A stretch of DNA of 32,202 bases from positions 1-32,202 of the forward strand of contig JAFGDN010000013.1 of assembly GCA_016932095.1 (NCBI GenBank), in the 5' to 3' direction. Below the pieces are notes generated by a model that saw only the letters and a list, made by a program, of their open reading frames with translations, was not told the origin of the DNA and searched no databases. Below, piece by piece: positions 3,331 through 23,952 of the stretch; positions within the stretch are counted from its first letter, which is position 1, and each line of letters starts with the position of its first letter. This DNA is from Sedimentisphaerales bacterium (GTDB lineage: Bacteria > Planctomycetota > Phycisphaerae > Sedimentisphaerales > Anaerobacaceae). The position numbers and the translations under genes are program-made.

Positions 3331-4350
3331 ATGTTTACGAGAACCTCATTTGCGATTTTGGCGTTGATTATCCTCGTCGTGATTACGTCCGTCACTGCAA
3401 AAGCCGATTTTGTCAAGGCATGGGGAGGCAATGATGAGGGTCAGTGCGATGTCCCCGAGCCAAATGCCGGTTTTGTATCCATCGCGGCGGGCTACCTTCA
3501 CAGCTTAGGGCTGAAGTCAAATGGCTCTATTGTGGCCTGGGGATATAATGACTATGGCCAGTGTTCAGTCCCTGAGCCCAATACGGATTTTGTGGCCGTT
3601 GCCGCGGGCTACCTTCACAGCTTAGGGTTGAAATCAAATGGTTCTATTGTGGCCTGTGGCAGCAATAGCTCTAGTCAGTGTAATGTGCCTGAACCTAATG
3701 CGAATTTTACAGCTATCTCAGCGGGTGAGTATCACAGTTTGGGTCTGAAATCAAACGGCTCTATTGTGGCCTAGGGCAACAACAATTTCGGACAATGTAA
3801 TGTCCCTGAGCCAAATGCCAGTTTTATATCCGTCGCTGCGGGTTATCTCCACAGCTTAGGGCTGAAATCGGACGGTTCTATTGCGGCCTGGGGATACAAT
3901 AGCTCAGGTCAGTGCAATGTCCCTGAACCAAATACAGATTTTGTGGCTGTTGCGGCGGGCGAGTATCACAGTTTAGGGCTAAAGCAGAATGGTTCTATTG
4001 TCATCTGGGGCCATCCTGGCGCAGGAAGTGTTCCTGAGCCGAATACGGATTTTACGGCTATCTCAGTAAATCGAGCCCACAGTTTAGGGCTGAAATCGGA
4101 CGGCTCTATTGTCGCCTGGGGTAACAACGATATTGGCCAGTGTAATATCCCCGAACCAAATACGGGTTTTGTCGCCGTTGCGGCAGGCGGATATTTCAGT
4201 TTAGCCATTGTTCGGCGTTGTGACTATGAACTCTCCGGCGATTTGAACGCCGATTGCATAGTCGATTTTTATGACTTTGCGAAAATGGCTTCAAACTGGC
4301 TGATTGATTGCTATGCCGAGCCGGATAACCCGCAATGCGTGCCTAAATAG
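3331..4350 (+). pseudogene. Secreted RCC1-like seven-repeat protein with dockerin-like tail, interrupted by an in-frame TAG
   Basis: A strong Shine-Dalgarno (AAAGGAGG, ending about 6 bases before the ATG) precedes a signal peptide (residues 1-25, ...VTAKA). Seven RCC1-type repeats of about 38 residues follow, each like WGYNDYGQCSVPEPN...HSLGLKSNGSIVA. RCC1 repeats fold into beta-propellers. The reading frame is open from 3331 to 4350 except for one TAG at 3772-3774. That TAG stands exactly where the conserved Trp (TGG) starts repeat 4, so one base change explains it. Repeat 3 has the same Trp changed to Cys (TGT at 3655-3657). After the repeats comes GDLNADCIVDFYDFAKMASNWL split as a single dockerin-like motif near the C-terminus. 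TAG also ends this gene and the big protease gene, so codon reassignment is unlikely. It is a recent pseudogene, a truncated 147-residue product, or a base-calling error. Confidence 0.85.
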
Positions 4351-4427: not shown

Positions 4428-7400
4428 CTACAATCCGGGAACACCTTTAGGGCCAATTGTATGTGTCTGCGAGCAGGCCTGGTTGCCTGCTTCGTCCCTG
4501 ACGCAAACCCTCCAGTTCAATTCCCTGCCTGTGCCGAAGGACTGGTTCACGTAAACGTCATAGACAATATTGGTGCCGTCGTAAGTCAGCCGCCAGCCCG
4601 TATAATCCCCTTCACTATATACCACGTTACTCAAGGAAACCGGTGTGCCTACGAGAATCGGACGCTGCGCTGCTGGTATCTTATTGTCGCTGTTCAAGCT
4701 GCTGTCGTCTGTGCATACGAACCTGACCTCTATGGGGCCGCCGCTGTCGTCAACAACGCCCGAAACGTTAACCACTACCTTGTGCCACCAGTTATTCCCG
4801 AACCACCAGTAGAATTGAACGCTGCTGGTGTTCGTGTCGGGGGTACTGAGGGTGTTTACATCAGGTAAAATTATTATCACAGGCGGCGTCGGCGGAGTAA
4901 TGTCGGCGTTGCCTATGCCGGTTACGCACACCGTGTTAGACCATCCCGTAGCGTTGTTGGAGTCATCGCGGGCCCTCACCCTGTAGCAATACTCGTAGCC
5001 GGCTTGCAGGCCGATGTCCGTGAACATCGGGTTTGTCTGCCAGTCGCTGTCGGTTCCGCCGGGGTTGCCCGTTGTTTCCTCGAACTGATACTGGATCTGG
5101 CCTCCGCTGTCGTCGCTGGCTAATTTCGCAATCATTGAAATCGACGTAAGCGACGCAATATTGGGCTCAACCTGCCACTGCATCGGGTCCGGCTCAGGCG
5201 GCGTTGTGTCTTCGCCGATGGAAATCCTTTCTCCAAACAGCCAGCAGTCCGAGAACTCATCCAAATCGTACTCATCCATCTCCAGCCAGGACAACGCAAA
5301 ATGAGCGAAATCCTCAAATGCCACAATGCCGTCGCCGTTGTAATCAAACAACAGGCATCCTCCGACCAGCGGATAATGATAACCCATATCGACGATACCG
5401 CTGTCTTTTACGTTATCCGTCCGCGTCGTATATGTGCTCAGGCCGAACTTGCTTACAAGGTCGGCGCCCGCGTCAACGCAGGGGCTTGTTATAGATTGCC
5501 CCGCTGCGACTTGGCTGAGGTGATAGTTATTTGCGTCAGCGCTAACAAACCGCGGATTTGCGCTTATGACGTTGGCATCCACGTTCAGGACGCAGCCCGG
5601 GTCGTATGATATCGAGCCGGCAATCTGGTTCACATCACTGTGATTTACATCCACTACGGACGGATTCTCCGCGATGCCGACCGTTATCTCCTTGCCTACT
5701 ATAGCGGAATTGCCCCAGATAATGCTGTTCAGAACGTTTGTGTAATTGCCGTAAGCGCAATACAGGCCGCCGCCCCTTCCGCCGGGCGAGCTGTTGCCCG
5801 TTATTGTGCAGTTGACAATGTTGGCGTCGCTGTGCCATACAGCCGCAATACCGGCGCCGCCGAGTAATCCCCTGTTTTTGGTAATCAGGCAGTTCTTGAC
5901 GAAGACAGAGTTATTCTGGTCCGGCTCACCGCCGTCAACCAGCCGGCTGGAGGCATAAATACCGCCGGCGTGGCCCAGCGAATTGTTGTCGGCTATAACA
6001 GTGTCGATAATATCGACAGTCGCTCCGAATATGGCTATGGCTCCGCCAACGCTGCCGGCGGCGTTTGCGTCGTTGCCTGTAAAGATGTTTCTGTTGACTT
6101 CACCCCATCCGCCGTTGACAAGCAGTCCGCCGCCGTGGATGGCCCTGTTGGATGACACGTTACTGTCCGAGATTTCGATATCCGACCGTGACGAGAAGAC
6201 GCCGCCGCCAACGTCCGCGAGGTTTCTGCTGAATATGCAGTCCCGCAACGCAGCCGTCGCGCCGTCTTCTAATGCCAACGCCCCGCCGAAGCTGACAAAT
6301 CCGTCGCTGACGGCCGGCAGCTTGCAGGGGTCGGCGACATTGTCGGCAAATACGCAATTATTGAACGTGGCGGAACTGCCCGTCGCCATATAAATGGCCC
6401 CGCCCAAAGTATCTATTCTGTAATTTACAGTCGGTTCTTGTCTTAAGTTGGGAAGCCAGCCATTCTGGCCTGTGATTCCATTTAGACCACCGTTACTGCG
6501 GTTGTTTATAAAGGAACATTTCTCAAATTTCGGTGCGCTGTCTCTGTCGATAAAAACCGCGCCGCCGAGACCGCTGTGGTCTTTCGGTAAGCGGCCATAG
6601 CCATCGTAGTATCCTGAAACTGGTTCCCATATAACGTTAGCACTTTCAGGGTAATACCAGCCGCCGCCTTTTCCACCTCGTCCATAAACCGGTTCGCCGC
6701 CCCCATTTCCGCCGTCGCCGCCATCGCCGCCAATCGCTCTGTTGTTGGAGAGGGTGCAATTGATAAAGGTCGGATTGCTTGGGCTACTCAAAAAGTCCCA
6801 TCCATAGTAAGTGTTGCTGATGTAAACGGCCCCGCCATACGCAAATCCGGGCCAGCCGCCGTTGCCGCCGACGGGATGTTCGGAGACCCCGGTCGCCTCA
6901 TTTACCTCGGTGCTGCCGTCAGCCCCGTTTCCGCCGTCGCCGCCCTCAAAATAGCAATCATCTATGACGCAATTTATAATCGTCGGCGAGGCGCCGTACT
7001 GGCATTGCACGCCCATTGCATAATACGACCCGCCGCTTACCCCGTCGTAGTGAGGATTGTCTTCGTCGTCAGGTTCGCCGTCTATTCCATCGCCCCCATA
7101 GGCATTGAACCCCCTTATTGTAATTCCCTGCAGTCGTGTAAGCGGACCGACCTGGAAGAACCTCAATGCGGCACCTACTGTCGCTTCCTGACCTGAGTCC
7201 TGTTCGATAACGGTTGCTGCGACCACGGCCGGGTCGTATGGGTCAACGCTTGTTATCGTTATATCCTTTCCCCATATTTCAAAGCCGGCCTGCGTGTAGT
7301 AGGACTGTGGAGAAGGCATAATCTGAATTATATCCCTAGGTTGTGCCTGGTCTATGGCCGCCTGAATCGTCGGATAAGCGGAGCTGGCGCCGACGTTAAG

Positions 7401-10400
7401 AATTCTGGGCCTGTAAAACGTGACCGTAACCTGCCTGTGCCCGTCCATTCTCACGGTGTTCCGATTCGCTTCAGAATAATCGTTATCGGTTCCTTCCCAT
7501 ATAACTAGGTCAGCGGAATTATTGGGCACGGCAACGAGTGTAACACGGTCGCCCGGGAACTGAAGCGTCCGGCCTGAAGGCGTAACCGTGCCGTCGCCGA
7601 TGATAATAACGTCCAGGTAATACTTGCCGTCCGGCTCGAACGCGACTATGACCGTCCTGTCGGAATCCATAGTAACTGTATTATTCGGCTCAGTTGACGC
7701 GTCGTCGTCGGCGCCCGTCCATCTCATAACACGGAAATTCGGGTCGGCCTCGGCCATAAGCTGAACAACCATGCCCGGTGTCACATCGCGAGTGGCGGGA
7801 ACAGCCCTGGCTGTAATCGTAAACGGGTCGTTGCCGTCTCCCGTCGCGATTATATTGCCGTCGGGAGGAAAGCCCCCCGATGTCTCTACGGCGATGGTCA
7901 ACTGGAACTGGTGGAACGCGACCCTGACTACCTTATCTGAATTCATAGTAACGGTATTATTCACGTCGGTGGATGCGTCGTTATCAGTCCCTGACCAGTT
8001 CAATATCTTAAAGCCAACGTCTGCGAGCGCCTGTAATGAAACGACGGCTCCGGCGCTGACGAACCGGCTGTCGGGGGCCTCGATGATAAACGGGTCGCTG
8101 CCGCCGAGCTGCGCGATTAACTGTCCGCCCGTTTCATCGACGACCTCGATAGTAAGCAGATACTGCGACACTTCGGCGGCTTTTGCGTAATGATAGCCCA
8201 AATCAACGATGCCAACATCGCCGACCTGGTCGGTTCTTGTCGTTAAGCCGTCCAAGCCGAGAGCAACAGCAGTGTTATTACCCGCGTCCAGACAGGGGCT
8301 GTTTTCCACCTGCCCCGCCGCGGTCTGGCTTAAATAGTATGCCGTTTCATCGAGATAGGGGCTGATGAACAGCGGGTCATCGTCAAAGCTGGTGGAATAC
8401 CACCATAAAAATTCCGGCTCTTCGGTAAAAATAGCCCACGGGCCGCCCTCAATGTCGCTGTAATCGACATCAACGTAAGCGATTGGGTAATACGGGTCGC
8501 TTCCGCGAGGGCTTCCTGCCGCTATTTGAGGGCCGTAAGCGGCGTAGTTACCCCAGACGATACTATTAATCACCTCGACGTAGGCGTAACCCTCTTTGCA
8601 GCTTATACCGCCGCCGGCGCCGGTCGAAAAATCAGCGGTGAAATTGTCGGCCACCGTGCAGTTGGTCAACTGTGTCCAGGCCCCTAATTTGCAGGCAAGG
8701 CCGCCGCCTTCCTCAGAAGCGCTGTTGTCGGTAATCAGACAGTTCGTTAATTCAAGCGGCGATGAGGCCCAACCTTCTGTAAAGATGCCGCCGCCGTAGT
8801 CGCCGTTTGCAAAGTTGTCTTTGAGAGAGGTGTTGACAATAAGACCTGATGTATTCCGCAGAGCAATACCACCGCCGACGCCGCCCTGAAGTGTCCCCTC
8901 GTTTAACCTTGCGGTATTACCGGTTATGTTACAATCGAGCAGGTCTAGTGTAGAGTCAAGGCAGCTTATCGCGCCGCCCTGAGTGGCCTGGTTTCCTACG
9001 AAGGTATCGGCCTCTACAGTTAAATTCCCGAACCAGATGTTTATGCCTCCGCCGCCGCCATCGCCGTCGCCGCCGCCGGCGTTATTGCTGGTGAAACGTG
9101 AGTTGTAGAGTGTGGTATAAGATTTAGTAAAAGGGGAACCTGAACTGTCAAGGCCGCCTCCGGTGTAATAGGATATGTTGCCGTTGAAATTACAGTCGGT
9201 CAGGGTCAATGTCCCGAATTCCTGGCGTAGTCCGCCGCCGAACACGGTTGCTGAGTTATTGGTGAAGTTGGTAGTGCTGATGTTCAGGTTGACGGGGCTT
9301 GAATAAAATGCACCGCCGCCCTCGCCGTTTCCCCAAAATCCTTCATAACCGTTATCGCCGGGCGTTGTTCCGTCGCCACCTTCGCCGCCCTGACCTCGAA
9401 GTGCATTGCTGTCAAAAAACGCGTTGCAACCTATAAAGGTGCAGCCGATGATGGTCGCATGGCTTGCCTGTTCTACATAAATACCTCCGCCCTTGATAGA
9501 GGTAATATCGCCGCCGTTGCCTCCGTTGGCGCCATCCTGGCCTTCGTCGCCATCGCCGCCGTCGCCGCCGTTGCCGGCGACTGCGCCCTGACGAACGTAA
9601 TTGGAAATAAACCGGCAATCCTTGATAACCGGATTACTGCCCGGGCTGACGTATATTCCGCCTCCAAGCGCAGGACCCGAGTTACCGCCTCTGCCGCCGT
9701 TTTGTGGTTCTTTTGCTTCCGTTTGCGTTTCTGGATCAGCAGCAGAGCCGTCATTGCCGTCTCCGGCGTCCTGGCCGTTGCCGCCTATGGCAAAGCAATC
9801 CCTTATTATACATTTATAAATCGTCGGACTTGACGGTGTGCCGCCTTGGTCGGGGTCGGAGCCGATAAGTATTCCTCCGCCTGCGCCCGCCAAGCCGTCA
9901 TTGCCGTCGTAGGCGTCCAGCGGTTCGTCCGGCATTGGCGGCCAGGCCTGGCCGGTTGCACGACCGTTTATTATGGTCAATCCGGCCAAAATACTTGTCG
10001 GTCCTTCGCCGCTGTTGAAAACAAAACCGCGTGCAGCCCACCAAGGCGGAGTCGGAAGGGTATTGCCCTGTGCGTTTATGATGGTGTTCGCCACTATATC
10101 AGGATTTTCCGGGTCGATACTTCGAACAGTTATAGCTCGGCCCATAAAGGTCAGGTTGCCTTCAAAATAGGTGCCAGGGCTTATCTCGACAATATCGCCC
10201 GTGGCTGCGTTAAAAATAGCGCTTTGAATAGTTGAATAAGGTATGGGAACGGTCAGCACCCTCGGGCCTGTCGTCAGGACAACTGATTCTTCAGTGGACC
10301 AGTCGGTCATCAAAAGGGTTAATTTATCCCTTGCCCTGCATCTAAATCTGTATCTATCTCCATTAAAAGTTAATCCCGTGCGAACAAAGGTGTCACTTGT

Positions 10401-12152
10401 CTGCCAGCCGGGCCCCTGAAAAGGACCGATGTTTAAGGCGAATTGAAATTCGAATTCGACGCCGCCCTGGTCAACGCCCTTTGCCTTCATACGGATATTA
10501 CAATTGTTGCCGCCCCCGATTCGCTGAATCATCGGTTTGATTGCCCATCTCGTCGGGTTCGGTGCAGGCGGGAGAGTGTCGTCCGGGCCTGGACCGGTTG
10601 TGGCCGTCAGTATGGTTGACCAGTCGGTTTCATTGAGGTTTGTCGAATTATCTCTCGCCTTGAATCTGAAGCTGTAAGTGGTATTGGCGTTAAGACCTAT
10701 AAAAGAATACAACGGATTTGCCTGCCAGCCGCTGTTTTGGTCGTTGGTGGTGCACTCGAAATAATAACTTATGCCCGAACGGTCGTAGTTAAGTTTGGCT
10801 TCCATCGAAATCGAGCTGGGGCCGGTAGCCGTAGGGACCATTTCCCATTCGGGCGGCATAGGCGGAGTAGTATCCGTGAACGCTTCAAGTGCGGCCGCAA
10901 AAAGGTTCAATCGTCCGCCGGAGACGCATTGAGCGGGCAGCGTGGGGTCAGCCGTCGCCAGCAAAATCTCTTTCACAGCCCGATAGTTCAAGTTGGGATC
11001 TATTGATAAAAGCAATGCACAGGCGCCGGCGACGTGAGGCGAGGCCATTGACGTGCCGCCGTCATAATCGTAAGCGCCGCTGGGAAGAGTGCTAAGAATA
11101 TTCTGTCCTGGTGCGCCGATATCAACCGTAGTCAATCCGTAGTTCGAAAAGCCCGCCCGGCTATCGATATCGGTCGTGGCCATTACCGAGATTATGTTGT
11201 CGAGGTCAAAACTTGAGGGATAAGCGGGCGTTGCATCGTTGTTATTGCCGTAATCATTGCCAGCCGCGGCGACAAAGATAATACCTGCGTCACGGGCGGC
11301 TACAATCGCGTCATAAAGCGGCTGCAAAGCCCAGAGCGGAACACCCAGGGGCATACCGAGGGACGCGTTGATTACACGAGCCCCTTTCAACTGGGCGTAT
11401 TGAACGGCATTAATTATTGCGGAAGTCGGGCCCTCACCGTTGGCGTCCAGACATTTCACCGCCATAATTTTAACGTTCCAGCATACACCGGCCACGCCGA
11501 GATTATTATTGCCTACTGCGCCGATAGTGCCCGAAACGTGCGTTCCGTGGCCTTCGTCGTCCATCGGATTGCCGTCGTTGTTGATAAAGTCGTAACCATA
11601 AACGTCATCTATGAAACCGTCGCCGTTATCATCGATGCCGTTGCCGGCGATTTCGCCGGGATTATTCCACATATTGGCCGTGAGGTCGGGGTGAGTGTAG
11701 TCGGTTCCGGTGTCGGTAACTGCCACGACAATATTGCCGGAGCCGGTTGAGATATCCCATGCGGACGGGGCTTCAATTTTACTCATACCCCATAATTCGC
11801 TGAATCTCGTATCGTTGGGAACAGCGGTTGACTTGCATATGTAGTCCGGCACGGCATATAAAACCGAGGACGACTGTTTCAGGGAAGCCACGGCGTTTTC
11901 GACCGGCGTTGTCGCCGGCAACTGGACCAGCGTCAGGCCCCGGACGAGTGAGTATTCTTTACATATACCGGCGTTAGTGGTTTTCAAGGTGTTGTTGACG
12001 ATGCTGATTTTGGCCGCTGTGGCGGGGGGCTGACCGTTGACGTCGGCGAATCGCACGAGGGCAACGCCCGGTCTGTAAGCCGGCTGATTTGCGTAAACGG
12101 CGCCTGCGAGTAAACATAACGCCGCCACACCGATAAGTATCTGGCGTTTCAT
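4428..12152 (-). CDS. Giant secreted subtilisin-family (S8) serine protease with duplicated beta-helix modules and dockerin-like motif
   Basis: This is a 2574-residue secreted protein with a signal peptide at 1-21 (ending AVYA). The S8 protease domain spans about 110-420. Its catalytic Asp147 is in AVTDTGTDYTHPDL, His202 in EGHGTHVSGT, oxyanion Asn299 in AAAGND and Ser368 in GGTSMASPHVAG, so it should be active. Two FN3-like segments follow (about 425-640), then a right-handed beta-helix module (about 635-1320), three 'bacterial repeat' units (about 1330-1580, each ending like NNTVTM.SD..V.VAF) and a second beta-helix module (about 1585-2260). A dockerin-like motif FDYNGDGIVAFEDFAHFALSWL is split near 2267, then another FN3-like segment and an unclassified C-terminal beta domain. 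Both beta-helix modules end in the same SPC.DAG...TTRTD...GYHY block, so they arose by duplication. The Shine-Dalgarno AAGGAG is 11 bases before the ATG. It follows the secretin gene by 41 bases, probably in one transcript. Confidence 0.93.
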   Translation of the reverse strand: MKRQILIGVAALCLLAGAVYANQPAYRPGVALVRFADVNGQPPATAAKISIVNNTLKTTNAGICKEYSLVRGLTLVQLPATTPVENAVASLKQSSSVLYAVPDYICKSTAVPNDTRFSELWGMSKIEAPSAWDISTGSGNIVVAVTDTGTDYTHPDLTANMWNNPGEIAGNGIDDNGDGFIDDVYGYDFINNDGNPMDDEGHGTHVSGTIGAVGNNNLGVAGVCWNVKIMAVKCLDANGEGPTSAIINAVQYAQLKGARVINASLGMPLGVPLWALQPLYDAIVAARDAGIIFVAAAGNDYGNNNDATPAYPSSFDLDNIISVMATTDIDSRAGFSNYGLTTVDIGAPGQNILSTLPSGAYDYDGGTSMASPHVAGACALLLSIDPNLNYRAVKEILLATADPTLPAQCVSGGRLNLFAAALEAFTDTTPPMPPEWEMVPTATGPSSISMEAKLNYDRSGISYYFECTTNDQNSGWQANPLYSFIGLNANTTYSFRFKARDNSTNLNETDWSTILTATTGPGPDDTLPPAPNPTRWAIKPMIQRIGGGNNCNIRMKAKGVDQGGVEFEFQFALNIGPFQGPGWQTSDTFVRTGLTFNGDRYRFRCRARDKLTLLMTDWSTEESVVLTTGPRVLTVPIPYSTIQSAIFNAATGDIVEISPGTYFEGNLTFMGRAITVRSIDPENPDIVANTIINAQGNTLPTPPWWAARGFVFNSGEGPTSILAGLTIINGRATGQAWPPMPDEPLDAYDGNDGLAGAGGGILIGSDPDQGGTPSSPTIYKCIIRDCFAIGGNGQDAGDGNDGSAADPETQTEAKEPQNGGRGGNSGPALGGGIYVSPGSNPVIKDCRFISNYVRQGAVAGNGGDGGDGDEGQDGANGGNGGDITSIKGGGIYVEQASHATIIGCTFIGCNAFFDSNALRGQGGEGGDGTTPGDNGYEGFWGNGEGGGAFYSSPVNLNISTTNFTNNSATVFGGGLRQEFGTLTLTDCNFNGNISYYTGGGLDSSGSPFTKSYTTLYNSRFTSNNAGGGDGDGGGGGINIWFGNLTVEADTFVGNQATQGGAISCLDSTLDLLDCNITGNTARLNEGTLQGGVGGGIALRNTSGLIVNTSLKDNFANGDYGGGIFTEGWASSPLELTNCLITDNSASEEGGGLACKLGAWTQLTNCTVADNFTADFSTGAGGGISCKEGYAYVEVINSIVWGNYAAYGPQIAAGSPRGSDPYYPIAYVDVDYSDIEGGPWAIFTEEPEFLWWYSTSFDDDPLFISPYLDETAYYLSQTAAGQVENSPCLDAGNNTAVALGLDGLTTRTDQVGDVGIVDLGYHYAKAAEVSQYLLTIEVVDETGGQLIAQLGGSDPFIIEAPDSRFVSAGAVVSLQALADVGFKILNWSGTDNDASTDVNNTVTMNSDKVVRVAFHQFQLTIAVETSGGFPPDGNIIATGDGNDPFTITARAVPATRDVTPGMVVQLMAEADPNFRVMRWTGADDDASTEPNNTVTMDSDRTVIVAFEPDGKYYLDVIIIGDGTVTPSGRTLQFPGDRVTLVAVPNNSADLVIWEGTDNDYSEANRNTVRMDGHRQVTVTFYRPRILNVGASSAYPTIQAAIDQAQPRDIIQIMPSPQSYYTQAGFEIWGKDITITSVDPYDPAVVAATVIEQDSGQEATVGAALRFFQVGPLTRLQGITIRGFNAYGGDGIDGEPDDEDNPHYDGVSGGSYYAMGVQCQYGASPTIINCVIDDCYFEGGDGGNGADGSTEVNEATGVSEHPVGGNGGWPGFAYGGAVYISNTYYGWDFLSSPSNPTFINCTLSNNRAIGGDGGDGGNGGGEPVYGRGGKGGGWYYPESANVIWEPVSGYYDGYGRLPKDHSGLGGAVFIDRDSAPKFEKCSFINNRSNGGLNGITGQNGWLPNLRQEPTVNYRIDTLGGAIYMATGSSATFNNCVFADNVADPCKLPAVSDGFVSFGGALALEDGATAALRDCIFSRNLADVGGGVFSSRSDIEISDSNVSSNRAIHGGGLLVNGGWGEVNRNIFTGNDANAAGSVGGAIAIFGATVDIIDTVIADNNSLGHAGGIYASSRLVDGGEPDQNNSVFVKNCLITKNRGLLGGAGIAAVWHSDANIVNCTITGNSSPGGRGGGLYCAYGNYTNVLNSIIWGNSAIVGKEITVGIAENPSVVDVNHSDVNQIAGSISYDPGCVLNVDANVISANPRFVSADANNYHLSQVAAGQSITSPCVDAGADLVSKFGLSTYTTRTDNVKDSGIVDMGYHYPLVGGCLLFDYNGDGIVAFEDFAHFALSWLEMDEYDLDEFSDCWLFGERISIGEDTTPPEPDPMQWQVEPNIASLTSISMIAKLASDDSGGQIQYQFEETTGNPGGTDSDWQTNPMFTDIGLQAGYEYCYRVRARDDSNNATGWSNTVCVTGIGNADITPPTPPVIIILPDVNTLSTPDTNTSSVQFYWWFGNNWWHKVVVNVSGVVDDSGGPIEVRFVCTDDSSLNSDNKIPAAQRPILVGTPVSLSNVVYSEGDYTGWRLTYDGTNIVYDVYVNQSFGTGRELNWRVCVRDEAGNQACSQTHTIGPKGVPGL

Positions 12153-12193: not shown

Positions 12194-15100
12194 TTAAAGC
12201 CGGCCCTCCATAGCCGCGATGGCCTCCGCGTCGGCCTCCTCCTGTAAAATAATCGTTGGCTTAACAAGAATCAGCAAAACTTGCTGGTCGCCTACCTTGC
12301 TGCGATTTGTAAACAATCTTCCGAGAATGGGAATTTTGCTCAGGACCGGGACTCCCACTTCCTTGTCGTTGGAAGCTGACTTCTTGAGGCCGCCCAGCAG
12401 CAGCGTCCCGCCGTCAGGCACGCTGACCCTGGTTTTGACCCTCGAACGTTCGGTCTGAGGCAGTACTACATTGTAAATAAAGACATCAGTGGCCGTGCCG
12501 AGAGTGCCCACGATGGGCGTCTCAACCTCGCTTTTTTCGAAACCGAGGAAATCCCGCGATTCAGCCACGATATTAAGCAGGACGTGTTTTCTGTCGGGCG
12601 TAATTGTCGGAGTTATGTTAAGAGTAGGCCCAACACGCACCTCTCCATACTGTTGCTCGAAGGAAGAGCCGCCGCCGAAGCTGCTGCCGCCGCCGCCTGT
12701 TGTGCCGCCGGTATTACTGATGCTTACAACCGGCGGCAGGGCGTAACGAATCGTGCGAATAACCTGTAAGGTTGCCGATTCGCCGGTGAGCACTGTAACC
12801 TTCGGTGCAACCAGCGATTCGGTATCGGCGTGCGCCTGTGTGGCCCTGATAAGGAAGTTGGCCTCAAGGTGGTCAAGAATCCCGCCGAACCTGCCTCCAA
12901 AGAAGCCCATTAAAGCGCCGCGTGATATGAATTGCGGGTCGGTTGAGCTTGGGTATCCTGGTGGGAATTGAACGGGACTGCTGCCGATGTCCCAGCTTCC
13001 CGACATTCCCGTTGGCGTCGGCTCCGCCATTTCGAACGAATCGGTCTGCCAGACGGATTGGCCAAAATGGTCGCCCAGGTCCACGACGCCGAAAACGTCA
13101 AGGCCGATTTCTTCGAGCGTGTTTTCACCGACAACGAGGAACCTTGCCTCAATGGAAACCTGGTGGCCAAGCGCGGCGCGCATTTTCAGAAGCAAATCGT
13201 TGATTTCACGGTGGTTTTTGGGGGTTTGCATAACGACGAGCTTTTTTGTTTCGAAAGCAGTAATGGTGCCTTCTCCGCCTGCGTCATACCAACTCGTCGG
13301 GTCAACGGCTTCCTGTATTAGAGCAATGAGATTAGTAATCCGCGTTTCGGCTTCCTGACGGATTGTATCCCTGTCAAGCTCTTCTTCCGTTTCATCGAAA
13401 TATTCTTCAAAAAAAGAACCGCCGCCGCCGCCGCCACCGCCGCCGCCGCCGCGGCCGCCGCCGCCACCGCCGCCGCCCTGACCACTTTCGGAGCTGACGT
13501 AGTAATCAGCCGGCCGACCGACAAGTATGGTAATGTCATAAACCCGGGTTTCCATTTGACCCGGGAGCGACTGCTGGGAAGCTATGTTAATGACTCCATC
13601 CTTTATGATATACCCAAGCCGGGCGAATCCCGCTGAAACGGACTGAAGCAAAAGGTCCAGCGCCGCGGACAGCTTGACGCCCATCAAGGGGTCCATATTT
13701 ATAGGCGTCGTTTGTTCTATGTTGGCGTTAATATATAAGTCGCCCCAGTTGACCAATATTTTCAGCGGAGGGTCAACGGAGTTGCTCATTATTTTTATCG
13801 CCTCACGAATCGGCATTTCAGGAGACAACTCCTGCAGGTTCACAATCTCGTCGAGCTGTTTCTCAACAAGGGCGTTGGCAGGGTCCTGACCCACGGTTTC
13901 TTCCTCTTTCCTGGTCGGCTTGGCATTAAGCTCGGCCCAGGTCGGCGGATAAGTGACCTCGTCGCGATAAGGAATCAGGGTTTTTTCTGTTTCCATAAGC
14001 GTATTGACTCTTTCTTTGCCCTTTTCCCTTGTGATTTCGAGCTGCTTTCGGTAGCTTATCATATCTTCGAGTGTGTCTTTCAGGATAAGCGCCTGGTTGT
14101 GCAGGGGATCGATTGCCAGCAGCATTTCAATCTGTCCGAGCGCCTCTTCGTAACGTTTTTGTTTCTGGAAGTTCTGGGCGTTTGCCAGCAGGTCGTCAAT
14201 TCTTTTTTTACGCTCGCCAGCCATCCTGTCTTTGTATTCCCGCTGGGCAAGCTGGGCCTTGACGCGATTATCTTCCTCCGTCAGTGCAGCGTGAGTCCCT
14301 GCGGTCTCGCTGACCTTTTCCGACAGCAGTCGTAACTGCCCGTCATACTGACGAAACAGGCCGTCGCCGAGATGCTGCTGATTTTCGTACACCACCCTTT
14401 TAGCGTTCTCGATGACCTGCCTTGCCTTTTCAAATTCACCGTTAACGAGCAGGGCATCGACCTTTTCTGAGGCGTCATTGACAACGGCCCTGGTCATACC
14501 GCGAATTACGTTTCTCCTGCGATTAATGACGGCGATATAACCCGTCTGCTCCTTTTCCGGCTCACCTGACGCCGTTGCTAATGATGGAACTTCGGCCGCG
14601 GCGACCGAAAGTTCGGCCATACGATCTTCCTGAACAGGTCTTGCGGTCGCTTTTTGGGGCTGCTCAGCCGGCGCCGAAGTCAGGGGTTGTTGTATAACGG
14701 CGGGTTGCGCCGCAGGCGACTCAGTTTTCGTTTTTTCCTTCTGAGCCGTTATCTTTTCAATTTTTTTCAGGTAATCCTCCGGCGACTCGCCGGGCGCAGT
14801 AGCCAGCAAGCCGCTGGCAGAAACTTTCAGGAATCCCTCGCGGGCCTTTTCGTATTCGCCGGCTCGAAAAGCAGCCACACTCCCTGCGTAAAGCTCTGAA
14901 ATCTGCTTTCTGCTGGCGCCAAGCTCTTTATCTATTGCGTCGAGGCGCTGCCTGATAAGCTGACGTTCGTCATCGGTAAGAAACTCGCTTGTCTGAATGG
15001 TCTGCAGGCGGGCTTCCGCTTCGGCAAACTTCTGCTGTTGGATAAGTTCTGCTGCGGAACGCATCACAGCAAGGGCTGCTTCCCTCTCGAGCGCCGCCTT

Positions 15101-15400
15101 ATGAGCTTTCTGCAGCTCCCTGTTGAGCTTTTCTCTTTGCTCGTTTGTGAGATACTTTTCGTAATCCTTTGCTCTCAGGTAAGACGTTTCAGCGGCAGAA
15201 TAGAGACCTCGCATATACTGCTCGGTTCCAATCTGAATCCAGTTGTCGATTACCTGACGGACAACCTTCTCTTTGTCGCCTTTGGCTTCCTGCGGCGACA
15301 CGTCTTCCGCTAACACCGTTGTTACGGTCAAAATCGACGTTAATAATATGAATAACGGGATTCGAACGGAGTTTTGAGACAACAATTTTAGAGAGTTCAA
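12194..15400 (-). CDS. Secretin-family outer-membrane channel with long repeat-rich N-terminal extension
   Basis: Secretins form large outer-membrane rings for type II/III secretion, type IV pili or phage release. The C-terminal core (about 740-1060) is clear: GHQVSIEARFLVV, GESATLQVIRTIRY, TLNITPTITPD and the signature VPDGGTLLLGG with VPVLSKIPILGRLF. An STN/N0-like domain lies at about 520-608, and a poly-glycine tract of 20 Gly with one Arg at about 641-661 precedes an N1-like segment. The first 450 or so residues are helical repeats (TPR-like, about 45-215), a Pro/Ala-rich linker and a coiled region. This is far longer than in a standard GspD, which has about 650 residues. I start at TTG 15400, because GGAGGAGG (15407-15414) is 6 bases upstream. 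The in-frame TTG at 15406 abuts that site and is less likely. A signal sequence (IPLFILLTSILTVTTVLA) follows. No pilin or secretion ATPase is nearby. Confidence 0.9.
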   Translation of the reverse strand: MNSLKLLSQNSVRIPLFILLTSILTVTTVLAEDVSPQEAKGDKEKVVRQVIDNWIQIGTEQYMRGLYSAAETSYLRAKDYEKYLTNEQREKLNRELQKAHKAALEREAALAVMRSAAELIQQQKFAEAEARLQTIQTSEFLTDDERQLIRQRLDAIDKELGASRKQISELYAGSVAAFRAGEYEKAREGFLKVSASGLLATAPGESPEDYLKKIEKITAQKEKTKTESPAAQPAVIQQPLTSAPAEQPQKATARPVQEDRMAELSVAAAEVPSLATASGEPEKEQTGYIAVINRRRNVIRGMTRAVVNDASEKVDALLVNGEFEKARQVIENAKRVVYENQQHLGDGLFRQYDGQLRLLSEKVSETAGTHAALTEEDNRVKAQLAQREYKDRMAGERKKRIDDLLANAQNFQKQKRYEEALGQIEMLLAIDPLHNQALILKDTLEDMISYRKQLEITREKGKERVNTLMETEKTLIPYRDEVTYPPTWAELNAKPTRKEEETVGQDPANALVEKQLDEIVNLQELSPEMPIREAIKIMSNSVDPPLKILVNWGDLYINANIEQTTPINMDPLMGVKLSAALDLLLQSVSAGFARLGYIIKDGVINIASQQSLPGQMETRVYDITILVGRPADYYVSSESGQGGGGGGGGRGGGGGGGGGGGSFFEEYFDETEEELDRDTIRQEAETRITNLIALIQEAVDPTSWYDAGGEGTITAFETKKLVVMQTPKNHREINDLLLKMRAALGHQVSIEARFLVVGENTLEEIGLDVFGVVDLGDHFGQSVWQTDSFEMAEPTPTGMSGSWDIGSSPVQFPPGYPSSTDPQFISRGALMGFFGGRFGGILDHLEANFLIRATQAHADTESLVAPKVTVLTGESATLQVIRTIRYALPPVVSISNTGGTTGGGGSSFGGGSSFEQQYGEVRVGPTLNITPTITPDRKHVLLNIVAESRDFLGFEKSEVETPIVGTLGTATDVFIYNVVLPQTERSRVKTRVSVPDGGTLLLGGLKKSASNDKEVGVPVLSKIPILGRLFTNRSKVGDQQVLLILVKPTIILQEEADAEAIAAMEGRL

Positions 15401-15406
15401 AGCCAA

Positions 15407-15833: not shown

Positions 15834-16910
15834 TTAGGACGCTTTCCCGGCCTGAATGATTTTATCGGCAAGTTTTTTCAGACGCACTGCATACTCAGCA
15901 AAGGCGTCGTCGCCTATAATAGCACGGTTTTTGCCGACGACCTCTGTAGCCGAGCGAACAGCGGTTAGCGCCTTGTCGAATTCACCCCGGCCAATAAAAC
16001 GTTCTACTTTTATCGCCGCGTCATCGACAACTGCCTTTGTATAAGCGGAAATGAGCTTTTCTCGATTGTCGGGGGAAGCAGGGGCCTGGGTTTCCTTTTC
16101 CGGAATTGCCTCAGCGGCCGCCTCCAATTCCTTTAGCTGTTGTTGCAGTGTTTGTTTATTATCCCTGACCGGCTCTTTCGGCTCAAACGCAGGCGTGATT
16201 TTCGGGGCGACGGGCGTCTGTCCGGTAATTTGGGCTGACTGACCGGGCGTTTTGAGATGTTCGGTTAGAATATTATCTATCTGGATGAGATAATCTTCGG
16301 CTGTCTGTCCTTTGGGGACGATGAGGATACCCGATTTGGCTACTTCCGCAAAGCCGTTACGTGCGCTTTCGATGTCGCCGGCCCTGTAAAATCCCACACT
16401 TTGATTATACAGCTCGGTTATTTCCATTCTCCGCTTGTCAAAAGCTGCATCGACGGTCTTCAGTTCCCCGGCGATTTGCTCTCGCTCCGGCTCAGAAAGA
16501 TATGGGCTGTTACGAACCTTTTCATACTGGGCCCTGGCTTCTATGGGCCGGCTTTGGTTAAGCAAATCCCTGGCCTGGGCCAGGTATTCAAGCACGGTTT
16601 TTCTTTCGGCTCCTCCCTGGCGCGCCTTGTCGAGGTTTTGCTTAAGCTTCCTTATTTCAGCCGGTGTGAGGTATTCCTGATACTCCTGTGCGGCCTGTAA
16701 CGATTTCTCGGCCTGCCCATAAAGCCCCCTGTTCAACTGGGCAATACCAACCTGAATCCAGTTGTTTCCTTCCTCTCGCAGAACTGCGGCTTTATTTCTC
16801 TCTGGTTTTTCGGCCTTCTGCGCCGCCGACGTGCAAACAACCAGCGCACATAAAACAATCACCGCTGAAAATTGCAGCCGGCCCAAAAATGTTTTCTTCC
16901 TCGAAACCAT
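15834..16910 (-). CDS. Periplasmic helical-repeat (TPR-like) protein, paralogue of the secretin N-terminus
   Basis: The 358-residue protein has a signal peptide (residues 1-30, ...LVVCTSA). Its repeats match the N-terminal part of the secretin encoded next door. NNWIQVGIAQLNRGLYGQAE parallels DNWIQIGTEQYMRGLYSAAE. The EYLTPAEIRKLKQNL, ITELYNQSVGFYRAGDIESAR and TAEDYLIQIDNIL segments all have counterparts there in the same order. The C-terminal AVVDDAAIKVERFIGRGEFDKAL block does as well. It therefore comes from duplication of the secretin extension without the STN, polyglycine and channel domains. The central stretch (about 220-285) is a Pro/Gln/Glu-rich linker. It could be a periplasmic partner that assembles with the secretin through shared repeats, but that is inference. 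ATG start with only a weak ribosome site (GAAAG). Confidence 0.85.
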   Translation of the reverse strand: MVSRKKTFLGRLQFSAVIVLCALVVCTSAAQKAEKPERNKAAVLREEGNNWIQVGIAQLNRGLYGQAEKSLQAAQEYQEYLTPAEIRKLKQNLDKARQGGAERKTVLEYLAQARDLLNQSRPIEARAQYEKVRNSPYLSEPEREQIAGELKTVDAAFDKRRMEITELYNQSVGFYRAGDIESARNGFAEVAKSGILIVPKGQTAEDYLIQIDNILTEHLKTPGQSAQITGQTPVAPKITPAFEPKEPVRDNKQTLQQQLKELEAAAEAIPEKETQAPASPDNREKLISAYTKAVVDDAAIKVERFIGRGEFDKALTAVRSATEVVGKNRAIIGDDAFAEYAVRLKKLADKIIQAGKAS

Positions 16911-17015: not shown

Positions 17016-19157
17016 TTATGCCCTTACGAGCTGTGTCTCATATAAGCTTTGATAAAGAGAGCAGGTTTGCATCAATTTTTCGTGTCGCCCCTGGGCGATG
17101 ATTCGCCCATTGTCCATTACGACAATCACATCGGCGGCGATTATTGTGCTGAATCGGTGAGCGATTATCAAGCTTGTTCTGTCGTGCATAATCTCTTCGA
17201 GGGCCTTGTGAATCTTGGCTTCGCTGTCGGCGTCAACCTGGCTGGTGGCCTCGTCGAAAATCAAAATTGCGGGATTTTTCAGAATGGCCCTTGCGATAAC
17301 GATTCTTTGAAGCTGGCCGCCGCTGAGACCCGAGCCATGCTCGCCGATAATCGTATCATAGCCGTTCGGAAGCGGCTCAATAAATTCGTGTGCAAAGGCG
17401 CGTTTGGCCGTATCGATAATCTCCTGTTTGCTTGCCCCCGTCTTGCCGTAGCCGATATTGGCTGCTATCGTGTCGTTAAAGGTTACTATTTGCTGCGTTA
17501 CCATAGCAATCTGGCTTCGTAAGCTGTGTAGTGTTGTATCGCGAATGTCAATACCATCTATCAGAACCTGTCCCTCGTCTGGGTCGTAAAACCTCGGTAT
17601 AAGATTTGCCAGGGTTGTCTTTCCCGAGCCGTTAGGGCCCACGATGGCTACCCTGTAACCTGCGCGAATACAAAGATTGACCCCGTTTAGAGCAGGCCTT
17701 TCCGAGCCGGGATACGTGAAAATAACATTTCTGAATTCTATTTTTTTCTGCAGGGGCGCAAGTTCAACAGCACCGGGCCTTTCCAGCTCCAGCGGCTTAC
17801 TCATAATCGCAAAAACTCTTTCAGCCGCGGCGTTTGCCTCCTGAATCTTGTTCCATATATCGCCTGTTCTTCTCATAGAGGCGGCGGCAGCACCCAATAG
17901 GATAAGAAATGTCATAAATTCAACACCCTCCATTTTGTTGTGCGCGACCCAGGTTGCCCCCACCATCAACGCCGCGAAACCGGCCAACATCCCGACTACT
18001 TCCATTATCGGCTGCGTCGCTGCGTCGGTTTTAGATATTTTCAATAACTGCTTTAATACGCGTTTGTTTATCGTCCCAAACGAGGATTGCTCGTATGCCT
18101 GCTGATTATAAACCTTAACAATTTTGAGTCCTGCCATCGTTTCCTGCAGCTTTGAGAGCATCTGCGACCAGGCCATCAGGGATTTCCTGCTTGCCCGTTT
18201 CATCCTTTTGCCTAATGCGACCACAATCCAAAGCGTGGGAGGGCCGCCAAAGAGGAATATTACCGTTAATTTCCAATCCAATATCGCAGCGAAACAAAGC
18301 AGAAAGATTGTGTTAAGGGGTTCTTGCAGGGCTTTTCCGAGAAGAACTTTAATGCCTATGCCCATTGTGCCGGTATCACGTATAAGCCGGCTTACCGAGT
18401 CGCTTGGCCGTTCGCGGGAAAAAAAACCGACTGGCATGTTTATGACATGCACAAAGGCGTCCTCCCGCAAATGATTTATTCCCACCTGCACTACTTTTTC
18501 TGCCAGGTATTGCTGGTGATACCTCGCTATACAGCGAATAACAGTAAGAATTGTCACGGTCAATATAATAAACATTACCGCCTTTGTTCTATTGCCCTCT
18601 GTTTGTCCGCGAGGCGCGACACTTACGGCTTTTTGCGCAATCGCAATAACTTTTGCTTTCAATCCTGTATCAGATAAGCCGTTGAGGTGCAAAATTTTTG
18701 TTTCTTCGTTCAGGCCCGGTCTTTTGATATGCAGGGCGGCGCCGTCACGTCTGGTGGAGGCAAGCTGTTCCAGCAAATCGGTAAATGATGTTTCCTGGCC
18801 GGCAGCAAAGTCGCCGATGCCGATAATGTGGTCTCCCGCCTTAAGCCCGGCGCTCTGAGCAATGCTGTCTTTGTGAACCGAGACCACAAGAAGCGAGTGT
18901 GTGAAATCAGAACTGCTATTACCCGTGAAATCCACGCTCTCAGGCACATAGAAACTCACGCCGTATTGCCACTGACAAATTTTTCTATCCGCCCAGTCGC
19001 GCAATCCCTCCTGTCCGGTCATAACTTTCAACAAAGGTATTACCGTCAGAAAGCTTACCGACAGGAGCACCGAGACAACCACCGCGCTTGTTACGACAAC
19101 GACAACTCGCGGCCACTGCGGCCAGATATACTTAAATACCCGCAAAAATTCCTTCAC
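17016..19157 (-). CDS. MsbA-type ABC exporter (fused membrane and ATPase domains) with a PDZ domain in the first periplasmic loop
   Basis: This half-size ABC exporter probably works as a homodimer at the inner membrane, on a lipid-like or other envelope substrate. Numbered from the GTG start, TM1 is at about 18-42. Then comes a roughly 150-residue extracytoplasmic insertion containing a PDZ-like domain (about 88-160: LLVVSVHKDSIAQSAGLKAGD, then HIIGIGD). The remaining membrane helices run from about 193 to 430. The ATPase domain (about 470-713) has Walker A GPNGSGKT (507-514), signature LSGGQ (611-615), Walker B ILIFDE (631-636) and switch His667. MsbA homologues lack the PDZ insert and have about 580-600 residues. 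I choose GTG 19157 because GGAGAG is 7 bases upstream. TTG 19172 has no ribosome site. The gene starts a same-strand run with the secretin and protease genes. Confidence 0.92.
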   Translation of the reverse strand: MKEFLRVFKYIWPQWPRVVVVVTSAVVVSVLLSVSFLTVIPLLKVMTGQEGLRDWADRKICQWQYGVSFYVPESVDFTGNSSSDFTHSLLVVSVHKDSIAQSAGLKAGDHIIGIGDFAAGQETSFTDLLEQLASTRRDGAALHIKRPGLNEETKILHLNGLSDTGLKAKVIAIAQKAVSVAPRGQTEGNRTKAVMFIILTVTILTVIRCIARYHQQYLAEKVVQVGINHLREDAFVHVINMPVGFFSRERPSDSVSRLIRDTGTMGIGIKVLLGKALQEPLNTIFLLCFAAILDWKLTVIFLFGGPPTLWIVVALGKRMKRASRKSLMAWSQMLSKLQETMAGLKIVKVYNQQAYEQSSFGTINKRVLKQLLKISKTDAATQPIMEVVGMLAGFAALMVGATWVAHNKMEGVEFMTFLILLGAAAASMRRTGDIWNKIQEANAAAERVFAIMSKPLELERPGAVELAPLQKKIEFRNVIFTYPGSERPALNGVNLCIRAGYRVAIVGPNGSGKTTLANLIPRFYDPDEGQVLIDGIDIRDTTLHSLRSQIAMVTQQIVTFNDTIAANIGYGKTGASKQEIIDTAKRAFAHEFIEPLPNGYDTIIGEHGSGLSGGQLQRIVIARAILKNPAILIFDEATSQVDADSEAKIHKALEEIMHDRTSLIIAHRFSTIIAADVIVVMDNGRIIAQGRHEKLMQTCSLYQSLYETQLVRA

Positions 19158-19164
19158 TCGACGT

Positions 19165-19170
19165 CTCTCC
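19165..19170 (-). promoter_or_regulatory. Shine-Dalgarno deciding the GTG start of the ABC exporter
   Basis: GGAGAG on the - strand is 7 bases before GTG 19157. It lies inside the longer frame that begins at TTG 19172, which argues against that longer start. Confidence 0.65.
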
Positions 19171-19176
19171 AATTAA

Positions 19177-21129: not shown

Positions 21130-23178
21130 ATGACGCACGGGAATGAAAATTTCGCAGTCGGCTTGCAATTCATATTTACGTGCCTTGTCCTGATAACGAC
21201 AGGATGGCCGTGCTTTGCGCAGCCAAGCGATACAAGCGGGCGTGAAAATCTTTCTGATATGTCCCTTGAAGAGTTATTGAATGTTTCCATCATAACCTCT
21301 GCTTCTCGCCAGCCGCAAAGAATCGGACAACTCACCGTTCCCATAAGCGTAATTACAGCCGAGGATATTCACTATAGCGGACTAACCAATCTTGCAGAAA
21401 TTCTTCAGTTTGCCCCGGGCGTTGATGTCTTGAAAATTGACCGGCTCAGATACGCCGTCGGCATCCATGGACTGCACGAAACGCTCTCCGACAGAACAAC
21501 TCTCCTTATCGACGGCAGAGAGGCGGATAACCCCGTTTACGGCGGTCCGGATTTCCTGGGTCTGCCGTTGATGCTTGAAGACATCGAGAGGATTGAAATC
21601 ATCCGGAGCCCGGAGAGTGCGGCCTGGGGCGCGAATGCTCTTACCGGCATAATCAATATCGTTACCAAAAGACCTCAGGACGTCACAGGAGCGCTCGGTT
21701 CCACAACCATTAGTGAATTTGGCGATTCTTATAATTATTTCAGGGTCGCACAAAAACAGGACAATTGGTCCTGTCGCATATCCGGCGGCTACCAGAATAC
21801 TGAAAGCTCCGACGACGCTATTGACGGAAGTGCAACATATAAATTTTTGAGGCCCGACCTCAGCGGCTGGTTCGACAACTTCCACGCACGCGACTTTGCC
21901 CGCATCACGCGGTTTGACTCCGAAGCCGAATATGCCGCTTCAGAGGACACAAAATTCCGCCTGGGCGTTGGCCATTCACACATCGAATCGGGCGACACCG
22001 AATATGGCGGCTATTTTCCAATGAAAAACATTCGCGAAGACCACATCCGTTCTTTTACCCGGCTTGAGCATCACTTTGATGACGGCGCAACCGCACATCT
22101 GCAATGGTCCGGCAAATTCTGGAACGCAAACTGGGTCAACATTTCACGGTTTGATACCGCCGAAAACGAATTTGAAGCGCAATTCGACTTCCCCCTAAAC
22201 GACAACCATTTGCTCAGCGTTGGCGCCGATTTCAAGTGGGACCACGTCCAAATGAGCAGGGACACGCCTGAACAGATATATATGCGGGGCTCGCCGTTCA
22301 ATGAATACACGACCGGCGCCTTTATCATAGACCGCCTGCGAATTTCAGAACGCCTGACGCTCGAGGGGCAGATTCGAGGCGATACATACACGCCCACAGA
22401 CCCCGACTGGGCAGGTCGTCTCTCCGCGCTCTATGCCCTCGACAGCCAACGCGACCACGTCCTTCGTTTCAGTGTTGCGAGGGCCTTTCGGGTTCCTCTG
22501 GTTGCCATTCGCAAATTCGCCAGCAACATGTTTGAAATTGCCCCGTCTGTTTATTTGTTCAACCTTGTTCCCACTGATGATTTGGATAACGAGGAAACCA
22601 CCTCTCTTGAGGCAGGTTACTGGGGCAGGTTAACTGACACATTTGCCATCGAGGCCGGCGCCTATTATCAGCGTTTCGACGGACTGATTGGATATCGCCA
22701 AACGACTGATATGCTCGGCCAGACATTTCTGGTCGCCGACAATATTGACGGAGCCGACTCATGGGGTGCAGAACTACAGTTGACCTTCAAAGATAAAGGC
22801 AAGGAGTTCTCCGCCTGGTACAGTTACAACGGCTTCGAATATGATGCTCCGTTGCAGGACCTTAAGGCGTTTTTGCCCAGTCGCCATAAGGCGGGTTTAA
22901 CCGGCCGGCTGTTTCTCCTCGCCGGATGGGTTGTCAACGCCCAGTACAGATTTGCAGATACCACACTTGGTAATCCCTCCCACGGAATAAACGCCGAAAG
23001 CTCGAATCGCCTCGATTTGGTGATATCCAAATCTTTCGCTCAGAACAAGTGCGAGATGATGATAGGCGTTCAGGATATACTTGATAAAACTCATAATCCC
23101 ATAGCGGAAAGCATCCAGTTCACAGGACACGAAACTCCGGGTAGAATGTTCTTCGCACGACTGCAGTTCGCGTTCTGA
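21130..23178 (+). CDS. TonB-dependent outer-membrane receptor
   Basis: The 682-residue protein has a signal peptide (residues 1-31, ...TTGWPCFAQ). The short segment DMSLEELLNVSIITSASR precedes a plug domain (about 60-180) with SVITAEDI, LAEILQFAPGVDV, TTLLIDGREADNP, IERIEIIRSPESAAWG and GIINIVTKRP. The rest is a beta-barrel with alternating aromatic strands, ending in the outer-membrane signal FARLQFAF. Such receptors import scarce ligands using TonB energy. This subtype (SLEELL..S..S, then plug) is often found beside YfiR-like genes, as here. No TonB box can be assigned with confidence. The 250 bases upstream hold no gene, and I found no convincing promoter there. Confidence 0.92.
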   Translation: MTHGNENFAVGLQFIFTCLVLITTGWPCFAQPSDTSGRENLSDMSLEELLNVSIITSASRQPQRIGQLTVPISVITAEDIHYSGLTNLAEILQFAPGVDVLKIDRLRYAVGIHGLHETLSDRTTLLIDGREADNPVYGGPDFLGLPLMLEDIERIEIIRSPESAAWGANALTGIINIVTKRPQDVTGALGSTTISEFGDSYNYFRVAQKQDNWSCRISGGYQNTESSDDAIDGSATYKFLRPDLSGWFDNFHARDFARITRFDSEAEYAASEDTKFRLGVGHSHIESGDTEYGGYFPMKNIREDHIRSFTRLEHHFDDGATAHLQWSGKFWNANWVNISRFDTAENEFEAQFDFPLNDNHLLSVGADFKWDHVQMSRDTPEQIYMRGSPFNEYTTGAFIIDRLRISERLTLEGQIRGDTYTPTDPDWAGRLSALYALDSQRDHVLRFSVARAFRVPLVAIRKFASNMFEIAPSVYLFNLVPTDDLDNEETTSLEAGYWGRLTDTFAIEAGAYYQRFDGLIGYRQTTDMLGQTFLVADNIDGADSWGAELQLTFKDKGKEFSAWYSYNGFEYDAPLQDLKAFLPSRHKAGLTGRLFLLAGWVVNAQYRFADTTLGNPSHGINAESSNRLDLVISKSFAQNKCEMMIGVQDILDKTHNPIAESIQFTGHETPGRMFFARLQFAF

Positions 23179-23298: not shown

Positions 23299-23952
23299 AT
23301 GAGATTAAATTTTCTCAAGACGAACGTGTTTATTTTGATTGTCCTCGCGGCGCTGACAGGGCTGCAAGGCAGGGCCATTTGTGCGCAGAGAAATCCTGGT
23401 TCTGCTGAGTATAAAGAGTATAACGTGAAGGCGGCGTTTATATACAATTTCATTAAATTCACCGACTGGCCTGACGACATACCGGCCGAGTCAAATACGA
23501 TTACCATAGGAATTCTCGGCGACGACCCGTTCGGCAACTCGTTTAGCGCCGTCGAGAATACGTTTATTAAAGGCAAGAAGCTGATTATTAAGCGATTCGG
23601 CAGATTCAGCGACCTCTGCAAAAACGGCGACAACAAAGAGAAAAATACCTGCGCTGCTTCAGACATCCTGAAGAAATGCCACCTGCTTTTTGTGTGCAAA
23701 TCCGAAAAAGAACAACTCGAACAAATAATCGGGACTGTTGCGTCTGACAGCATCCTGACGGTCGGCGAGTATGACGGATTTATCGAGGCGGGCGGTATTA
23801 TTAACCTCATACCCTTCGAAAACAAGATTGCCTTCGAAATCAGTATGGTCGCGGCCAAAAAAGCAAACCTTAAAATCAGCTCACAGGTCCTTCGCCTGGC
23901 AAAACGGGTAATAAGCAAGGAAGCTGCTGAAGCGGAACCGCCGGCAAAATAA
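23299..23952 (+). CDS. YfiR-family (DUF4154) periplasmic protein
   Basis: The 217-residue protein has a signal peptide (about 1-29, ...GRAICAQ) and the family hallmark EYNVKAAFIYNFIKFTDWP (about 39-57). It continues with TIGILGDDPFG, a Cys-containing middle, LTVGEYDGFIEAGGIINLI and FEISMVAAKKANLKISSQVL. In Pseudomonas, YfiR is a periplasmic inhibitor of a membrane diguanylate cyclase. In many other bacteria DUF4154 genes sit between a TonB-type receptor and a sensor kinase. Here the receptor is 120 bases upstream, but no kinase or GGDEF gene follows. The next gene is convergent, so the output partner is elsewhere or missing. The arms TAATCAC and GTGATTA (23950-23956, 23978-23984) span the two facing stop codons. 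Confidence 0.88.
   Translation: MRLNFLKTNVFILIVLAALTGLQGRAICAQRNPGSAEYKEYNVKAAFIYNFIKFTDWPDDIPAESNTITIGILGDDPFGNSFSAVENTFIKGKKLIIKRFGRFSDLCKNGDNKEKNTCAASDILKKCHLLFVCKSEKEQLEQIIGTVASDSILTVGEYDGFIEAGGIINLIPFENKIAFEISMVAAKKANLKISSQVLRLAKRVISKEAAEAEPPAK

Follow-up and report, generated by a model that had tools for sequence, protein, structure and literature searches.

A stand-alone copy of the N-terminal helical arm of a secretin, encoded beside the secretin gene in Sedimentisphaerales

Architecture of the locus

The window, by which we mean the whole stretch of 32,202 nucleotides analysed here, comes from a draft Sedimentisphaerales genome (G000; 94 contigs, 2.95 Mb in total). On its minus strand the short protein that is the subject of this paper is preceded by an MsbA-like ABC transporter (17016-19172) and followed by a secretin and then a giant S8 protease/beta-helix protein. 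The short protein and the N-terminal part of the secretin have in common what we refer to as the arm, which was split into three TPR-like repeats (R1, R2 and R3), a linker and a helical block (CB), with one profile built for each module and run on each fetched locus. The features are as follows.

15834..16910, minus strand: short free-standing protein, 358 aa, with signal peptide, R1-R2-R3, linker and CB (open reading frame, alignment, module profiles)
16821..16910, minus strand: putative signal peptide of the short protein, without canonical lipobox (pattern scan, first 60 residues)
16626..16796, minus strand: R1 TPR-like repeat, short protein residues 39-95 (module profile)
16446..16625, minus strand: R2 repeat, short protein residues 96-155 (module profile)
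16257..16439, minus strand: R3 repeat, short protein residues 158-218 (module profile)
15858..16073, minus strand: CB helical block, short protein residues 280-351, containing the AVV.DA..KV motif (alignment, module profile)
12194..15406, minus strand: adjacent secretin, 1070 aa, with signal peptide, R1-R2-R3, linker, CB, T2, N0-like domain, N1-like domain and channel
15107..15277, minus strand: R1 of the secretin, residues 44-100 (module profile)
14927..15106, minus strand: R2 of the secretin, residues 101-160 (module profile)
14735..14917, minus strand: R3 of the secretin, residues 164-224 (module profile)
14312..14545, minus strand: CB of the secretin, residues 288-365 (module profile, model)
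13997..14251, minus strand: T2, second TPR block of the secretin, residues 386-470, without counterpart in the short protein
13571..13891, minus strand: N0-like periplasmic domain of the secretin, residues 506-612 (label inferred from predicted fold)
13082..13336, minus strand: N1-like periplasmic domain of the secretin, residues 691-775 (label inferred)
12248..12838, minus strand: secretin channel domain PF00263, residues 857-1053 (Pfam)
4428..12152, minus strand: giant S8 protease/beta-helix protein, 2574 residues, directly downstream of the secretin (Pfam, locus comparison)

The AlphaFold2 model of the short protein (mean pLDDT 85, pTM 0.54, from 46 sequences) contains two confident helical domains, residues 36-220 and 280-357, separated by a linker that is predicted to be disordered here and in the secretin alike. 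The secretin was modelled from 38 sequences with a mean pLDDT of 71 and a pTM of 0.39, and from about residue 525 to its end the model aligns with solved secretins such as InvG, PilQ and GspD. In the models the last CB helix of the secretin continues as a single helix (residues 343-415) into T2, whereas that of the short protein stops. Among NCBIfam models the best matches to the secretin are MshL and Amuc_1098, each under its cut-off and the latter lying in the channel part; none matches the short protein. In many genomes of the family, draft contigs break inside the Gly-rich stretch of the secretin that lies between its N0 and N1 domains.

Relationship between the short protein and the secretin

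A preliminary description of this DNA had proposed a 358-residue protein, encoded at 15834-16910, whose blocks recur in the same order in the secretin. The open reading frame exists, and the order of blocks is borne out by a single colinear BLASTP alignment of the two proteins (118/352 identical, 34%; 188/352 positive; 24 gap positions; E 2e-48). This alignment extends from residue 18 of the short protein, set against residue 20 of the secretin at the end of the signal peptide, to residue 351, set against residue 365, and covers R1-R3, the linker, which aligns weakly, and CB. The AVV.DA..KV block is common to both proteins and falls within CB (280-351 and 288-365, respectively), so that the likeness is not one of TPRs alone with neither linker nor C-terminal block in common.

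Generic TPR similarity was considered as an explanation and rejected. In a search of its own genome, in which 13 candidates were scored, the short protein retrieved only itself and the adjacent secretin at E <= 0.001, and these two sole matches, together with the shared CB, point to a likeness beyond that of TPRs in general. The short protein of the window scores 16.9 bits against the Pfam model TPR_16, below its cut-off of 32.7, and TPR_2 matches 25 of 46 arm sequences at E <= 0.01. A fold search with the short protein returned nothing below E 0.001; PilF, PilW and BamD were among its weak matches (E over 0.001, low TM, generic TPR), and the VIA-align rows for the short protein were generic TPR proteins and helical bundles.

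All 13 short proteins that we accept (see below) carry R1, R2, R3 and CB in colinear order, and none gave any match to the T2, N0 or N1 profiles. The channel is missing from the short protein as had been described, both by the module profiles and by the lack of a Pfam match to PF00263, for which the adjacent secretin has one match above cut-off. The earlier wording that the duplication keeps only the periplasmic part needs narrowing: T2, N0 and N1 are also periplasmic and are absent too, which means that only the N-terminal helical arm was copied. A duplication of the N-terminal part of the secretin is itself upheld by the alignment, a tree of the arms, the module profiles and the gaps between genes at the locus.

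Distribution and gene order

The search for related loci reached three, all from one genus (Phycisphaerales MAGs, with two isolates labelled 'fen'). Matches were found in 54 of 61 genomes (the window's own and 60 relatives), in 69 of the 89 genomes of the whole family and in 110 of 125 genomes of the order with completeness of at least 80%. A genuine short gene is present in 13 of the 69 matched family genomes (89 searched), namely G000, G001, G002, G003, G006, G008, G012, G016, G022, G024, G032, G034 and G036, and its frame is intact in every one; the protein of G024 is longer, at 519 aa. Three short-like frames were rejected and not counted, that of G018, where the secretin frame is broken, and those of G050 and G081, which lie at contig ends. 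Outside the family of the window no short frame occurs among the matches listed in the order search, apart from that of G050, a secretin truncated where its contig stops.

The pair also co-occurs in relatives with the same gene order, as the preliminary description had suggested should be surveyed. In 12 of the 13 genomes the short gene adjoins the secretin on its upstream side and is read in the same direction; in the thirteenth, G036, its neighbour is tsaB, and the secretin is found on a different contig. Its usual site is between the secretin and the gene that we take to be tsaB by its conserved N-terminal pattern (ETSGR.GS.A); the secretin is divergent from tsaB in most loci. Family loci that lack a short gene have 160-358 nt between tsaB and the secretin (47 measurable loci), and in other families the distance is 134-364 nt (12 loci), as against 1481-1931 nt in the seven short-bearing loci with tsaB adjacent; the gap of 825 in G018 was dropped for its broken secretin frame.

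Age and origin of the duplication

In the arm tree the short proteins of G000-G003 and G032 form one clade (100/100) and their secretins another (100/99). This separation places the duplication before the genus, in keeping with the identity of the window's short protein to those of G001-G003 (48-49%), which exceeds its identity to the adjacent secretin (34%). That all short proteins go back to one event is neither supported nor rejected (p-AU 0.44 with 13 rows, 0.39 without G006). Treated as a label, the short proteins require three changes on the arm tree, and the presence of the short gene requires eight on the secretin tree, which is less resolved and leaves out G018 and G058. The nearest sequence to the short protein of G006 is the secretin of that same genome (49%), and the two genes have 70 nt of upstream DNA in common at 81%, the only such likeness among 11 same-genome pairs examined; on these two grounds the G006 gene may be a separate, younger duplication.

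A conserved promoter-like element, with a consensus of TTGCAA and TATAG blocks, lies within 450 nt before the start of most secretins across the order; the leader that comes after it measures tens to about 180 nt. It was modelled on 61 upstream regions of secretins whose loci lack a short gene, with 47 rows entering the model. Among the short-bearing genomes the element precedes the secretin in G006, G032, G001, G003, G034, G022, G008 and G012 (E 7e-10 to 7.5e-4) and the short gene in G006 (1e-10), G016 (6e-6) and G024 (7e-4), and its occurrence before some short genes fits a tandem duplication in which, for some lineages at least, the promoter would have been copied too. Neither gene of the window has a convincing match upstream (E over 1).

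Selection, loss and drift of arm modules

The short gene is under purifying selection in G001-G003, its dN/dS over three pairs being about 0.14-0.27 by NG86 and 0.33-0.49 by YN00.

The modules that precede CB in the secretin were tabulated for family loci with and without a short gene. Eight of the 13 secretins accompanied by a short gene, the window's among them, have R1-R2-R3, one (G034) has R1-R3, and four (G001, G002, G003 and G016) have R1 alone, having lost the R2 and R3 that the short protein in each case retains. The 50 loci without a short gene comprise 28 with R1-R2-R3, 15 with R1-R2-R3-R3, five with R1-R2, one with R1-R3 and the broken secretin of G018. Double loss of R2 and R3 therefore occurs in 4/13 secretins with a short gene and in 0/49 loci without (Fisher p 0.0013), in a table that leaves out G018 and counts G073 twice for its two loci; G019, G028, G061, G081, G101, G106 and G111 are not in the module table (N-terminus off one frame, contig end or, for G101 and G106, region not fetched). 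On the secretin tree the double loss amounts to two independent events, a number with which an independent-pairs test of short gene against double loss cannot reach significance, and it did not. Short-bearing branches hold a 0.19-0.24 share of the branch length, which gives a chance of about 0.04-0.06 that two random losses would both fall on them. Loss of one repeat occurs without a short gene, of R3 in five family loci and two outside and of R2 in one and one, from which it follows that parts of the arm can be dispensable.

Drift of the modules was scored with profiles trained on 27 secretins, taken only from genomes without a short gene. The short proteins of G001-G003 score 71-75 bits for R2 and 72-78 for R3, where the secretins of short-bearing genomes have means of 51 and 73; that of G016, the fourth double-loss genome, scores 43 and 66. 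In the window pair the short protein and the secretin score 48 vs 46 for R2, 70 vs 67 for R3 and 60 vs 87 for CB. The CB score is lower in the short protein in 13 of 13 pairs (37-73 in 12 short proteins, against a secretin mean of 92), although in G006 it falls just from 110 to 105. By these module scores, R2-R3 of the short protein is held to the standard of the family in the clade of the window and CB, which leads to the ring, is not. Elsewhere R2 of the short protein has decayed to 17-30 bits (G008, G012, G022, G024, G034 and G036; 17-27 with G012 set aside), and one role may not suit all short proteins.

Proposed function of the short protein

The reading that we prefer, to which we give a probability of roughly one half, is that the short protein would be a soluble, trans-acting copy of the secretin arm that works beside its secretin and has R2-R3 as its working part; homology, synteny, selection, module loss and the drift of CB all bear on it. 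The 5' part of the secretin gene would have been duplicated locally and in tandem, giving rise to a secreted periplasmic protein consisting of the N-terminal helical arm alone, which purifying selection then kept and which came to divide the labour with its parent (subfunctionalisation). The copy would have retained R2-R3, presumably a contact module for the inner-membrane platform, a substrate or the cell wall, and its CB would have been released from constraint, that of the secretin leading by the long helix into T2 and the ring. As a soluble adaptor the short protein would dock on the R1/CB stump of the secretin or on T2, and by providing R2-R3 in trans it could have allowed some secretins to shed their own. 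Taken to its end this would amount, in some Phycisphaerae, to a split secretin whose working repeats come from a separate soluble protein born of the channel gene and docked on the R1/CB stump, a picture that we offer tentatively and as the less probable side of the question.

The preliminary description had seen in the short protein either a partner in mixed assemblies or a competitor that tunes the assembly of the secretin. As regards the first, a functional link is favoured by the loss of R2 and R3 only where a short gene is present, but mixed rings are unlikely, as a protein without N0, N1 and channel is not expected to be a ring subunit. The second, in which the short protein would take up the site where the secretin arm binds a partner or sister arms and so limit or time assembly, would suit a secreted protein that has the same arm and lacks the ring-building domains, and its own start, with a gap of about 230-540 nt separating the gene from the secretin, would permit separate expression. 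We nevertheless think it improbable, since the secretins of G001-G003 and G016 no longer carry the copied R2-R3 and leave little common site to contest, while the short gene is still under selection in G001-G003 and canonical R2-R3 persists in the short proteins of all four genomes.

It is about equally doubtful that the short protein is a pilotin-like assembly factor which escorts secretin monomers to the outer membrane in the manner of PilF, PilW, Tgl or TadD. These are TPR proteins (PMC10653833, PMC10499894), the N-terminal TPRs of Akkermansia PilQ have been likened to pilotins (PMC4960237), and PilF, PilW and BamD recur in the fold search, though all above E 0.001 and as generic TPR matches. 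A simple pattern for the lipobox, however, is missing in 12 of 13 short proteins and borderline in G003, most relatives do without the short gene, and the short protein descends from the secretin itself, unlike known pilotins.

A new periplasmic role apart from the secretin, for instance as scaffold or chaperone for the giant secreted protein encoded nearby, appears no better placed than these. It would accommodate the fast divergence of the short proteins in several lineages (end branches of up to 1.8 changes per column) and the free R3 repeat arrays found elsewhere in some genomes, yet the short gene stays by the secretin in 12 of 13 genomes and its R2-R3 is still secretin-like in the clade of the window. 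That the gene is a decaying or neutral duplicate with no function, as its patchy occurrence (13/69 matched family genomes, eight state changes on the secretin tree) might suggest, is very hard to reconcile with a dN/dS well below 1, with frames intact in 13/13 and with the old split that sets the short proteins of G000-G003 and G032 (100/100) apart from their secretins.

Comparison with known systems

Secretins are aided by unrelated TPR pilotins, and their N-terminal modules differ between species. The copied arm is best read as a kind of TPR helper of secretins that is not a canonical lipoprotein pilotin. With PilF, PilW, Tgl and TadD it shares the arrangement of a separate periplasmic TPR protein by a secretin; those proteins are lipoproteins and not copies of a secretin N-terminus (PMC10653833, PMC10499894). 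The PilQ of Akkermansia (Amuc_1098), a secretin from the PVC superphylum, also has TPRs at its N-terminus, in the form of a three-TPR, BAM-like domain described as pilotin-like (PMC4960237); there the TPRs occur only as part of the secretin, the consulted text of that paper describing no free copy, and the likeness drawn here is one of architecture. A further parallel is offered by the AMIN domains of PilQ, N-terminal periplasmic secretin modules whose presence varies by species and which set the site of assembly (PMC10653833); they differ in being cell-wall binders in cis, where the present arm is helical and has its copy in trans. Listings of the open-access literature yielded no paper that deals with a free-standing secretin arm. 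Genomes with the arm in cis only, in cis with a free copy, or mostly in trans form a natural series that would reveal how much of the arm works untethered, and the natural deletions of R2-R3 are material for testing the role of the arm in bacteria with barely studied secretion machines.

Neighbouring genes and further observations

The own genome has four PF00263 loci. Those on contigs C43, C66 and C72 adjoin ATPase, platform and pilin-type genes (named by eye from their N-termini), and the window secretin has no such neighbours. Contig C55 (G000:C55, L158) holds an ATPase, platform and prepilin-type cluster and no PF00263 match, and it is our guess that the window secretin pairs with it. Equally a guess is that the giant downstream protein is a client or cargo of the secretin; in many relatives the secretin is followed by a giant secreted S8/beta-helix protein or some other very long one, of about 1500-3000 aa and often truncated where the contig or region ends.

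Repeats have also been multiplied in cis. The secretin of L072 (G058, 6289-10299) reads R2-R3-R3-R1-R2-R3 and those of L073 and L074 (G044 and G048) have three R3 each, so that arm length varies widely with repeat number. R3-type repeat arrays, in genes for about 290-590 aa, occur away from the secretin locus at G019:C1:4719.8-4721.4 kb, G026:C112, G077:C1:4628 kb, G097:C278 and G110:C11 (L152 among the loci profiled), several with stop codons inside the matches.

Elsewhere in the window, the MsbA-like ABC transporter has a PDZ-like stretch (residues ~82-160) before its matched membrane part. The genes at 21130-23178 and 23299-23952 encode a TonB-dependent receptor and a YfiR-like protein, corresponding, below cut-off, to the NCBIfam pair TOL_0244/TOL_0243. 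Lastly, the two open reading frames at 3331-3774 and 3943-4350 carry the same 'SLGLK..GSIV' repeats in line and are probably one interrupted RCC1-like gene.
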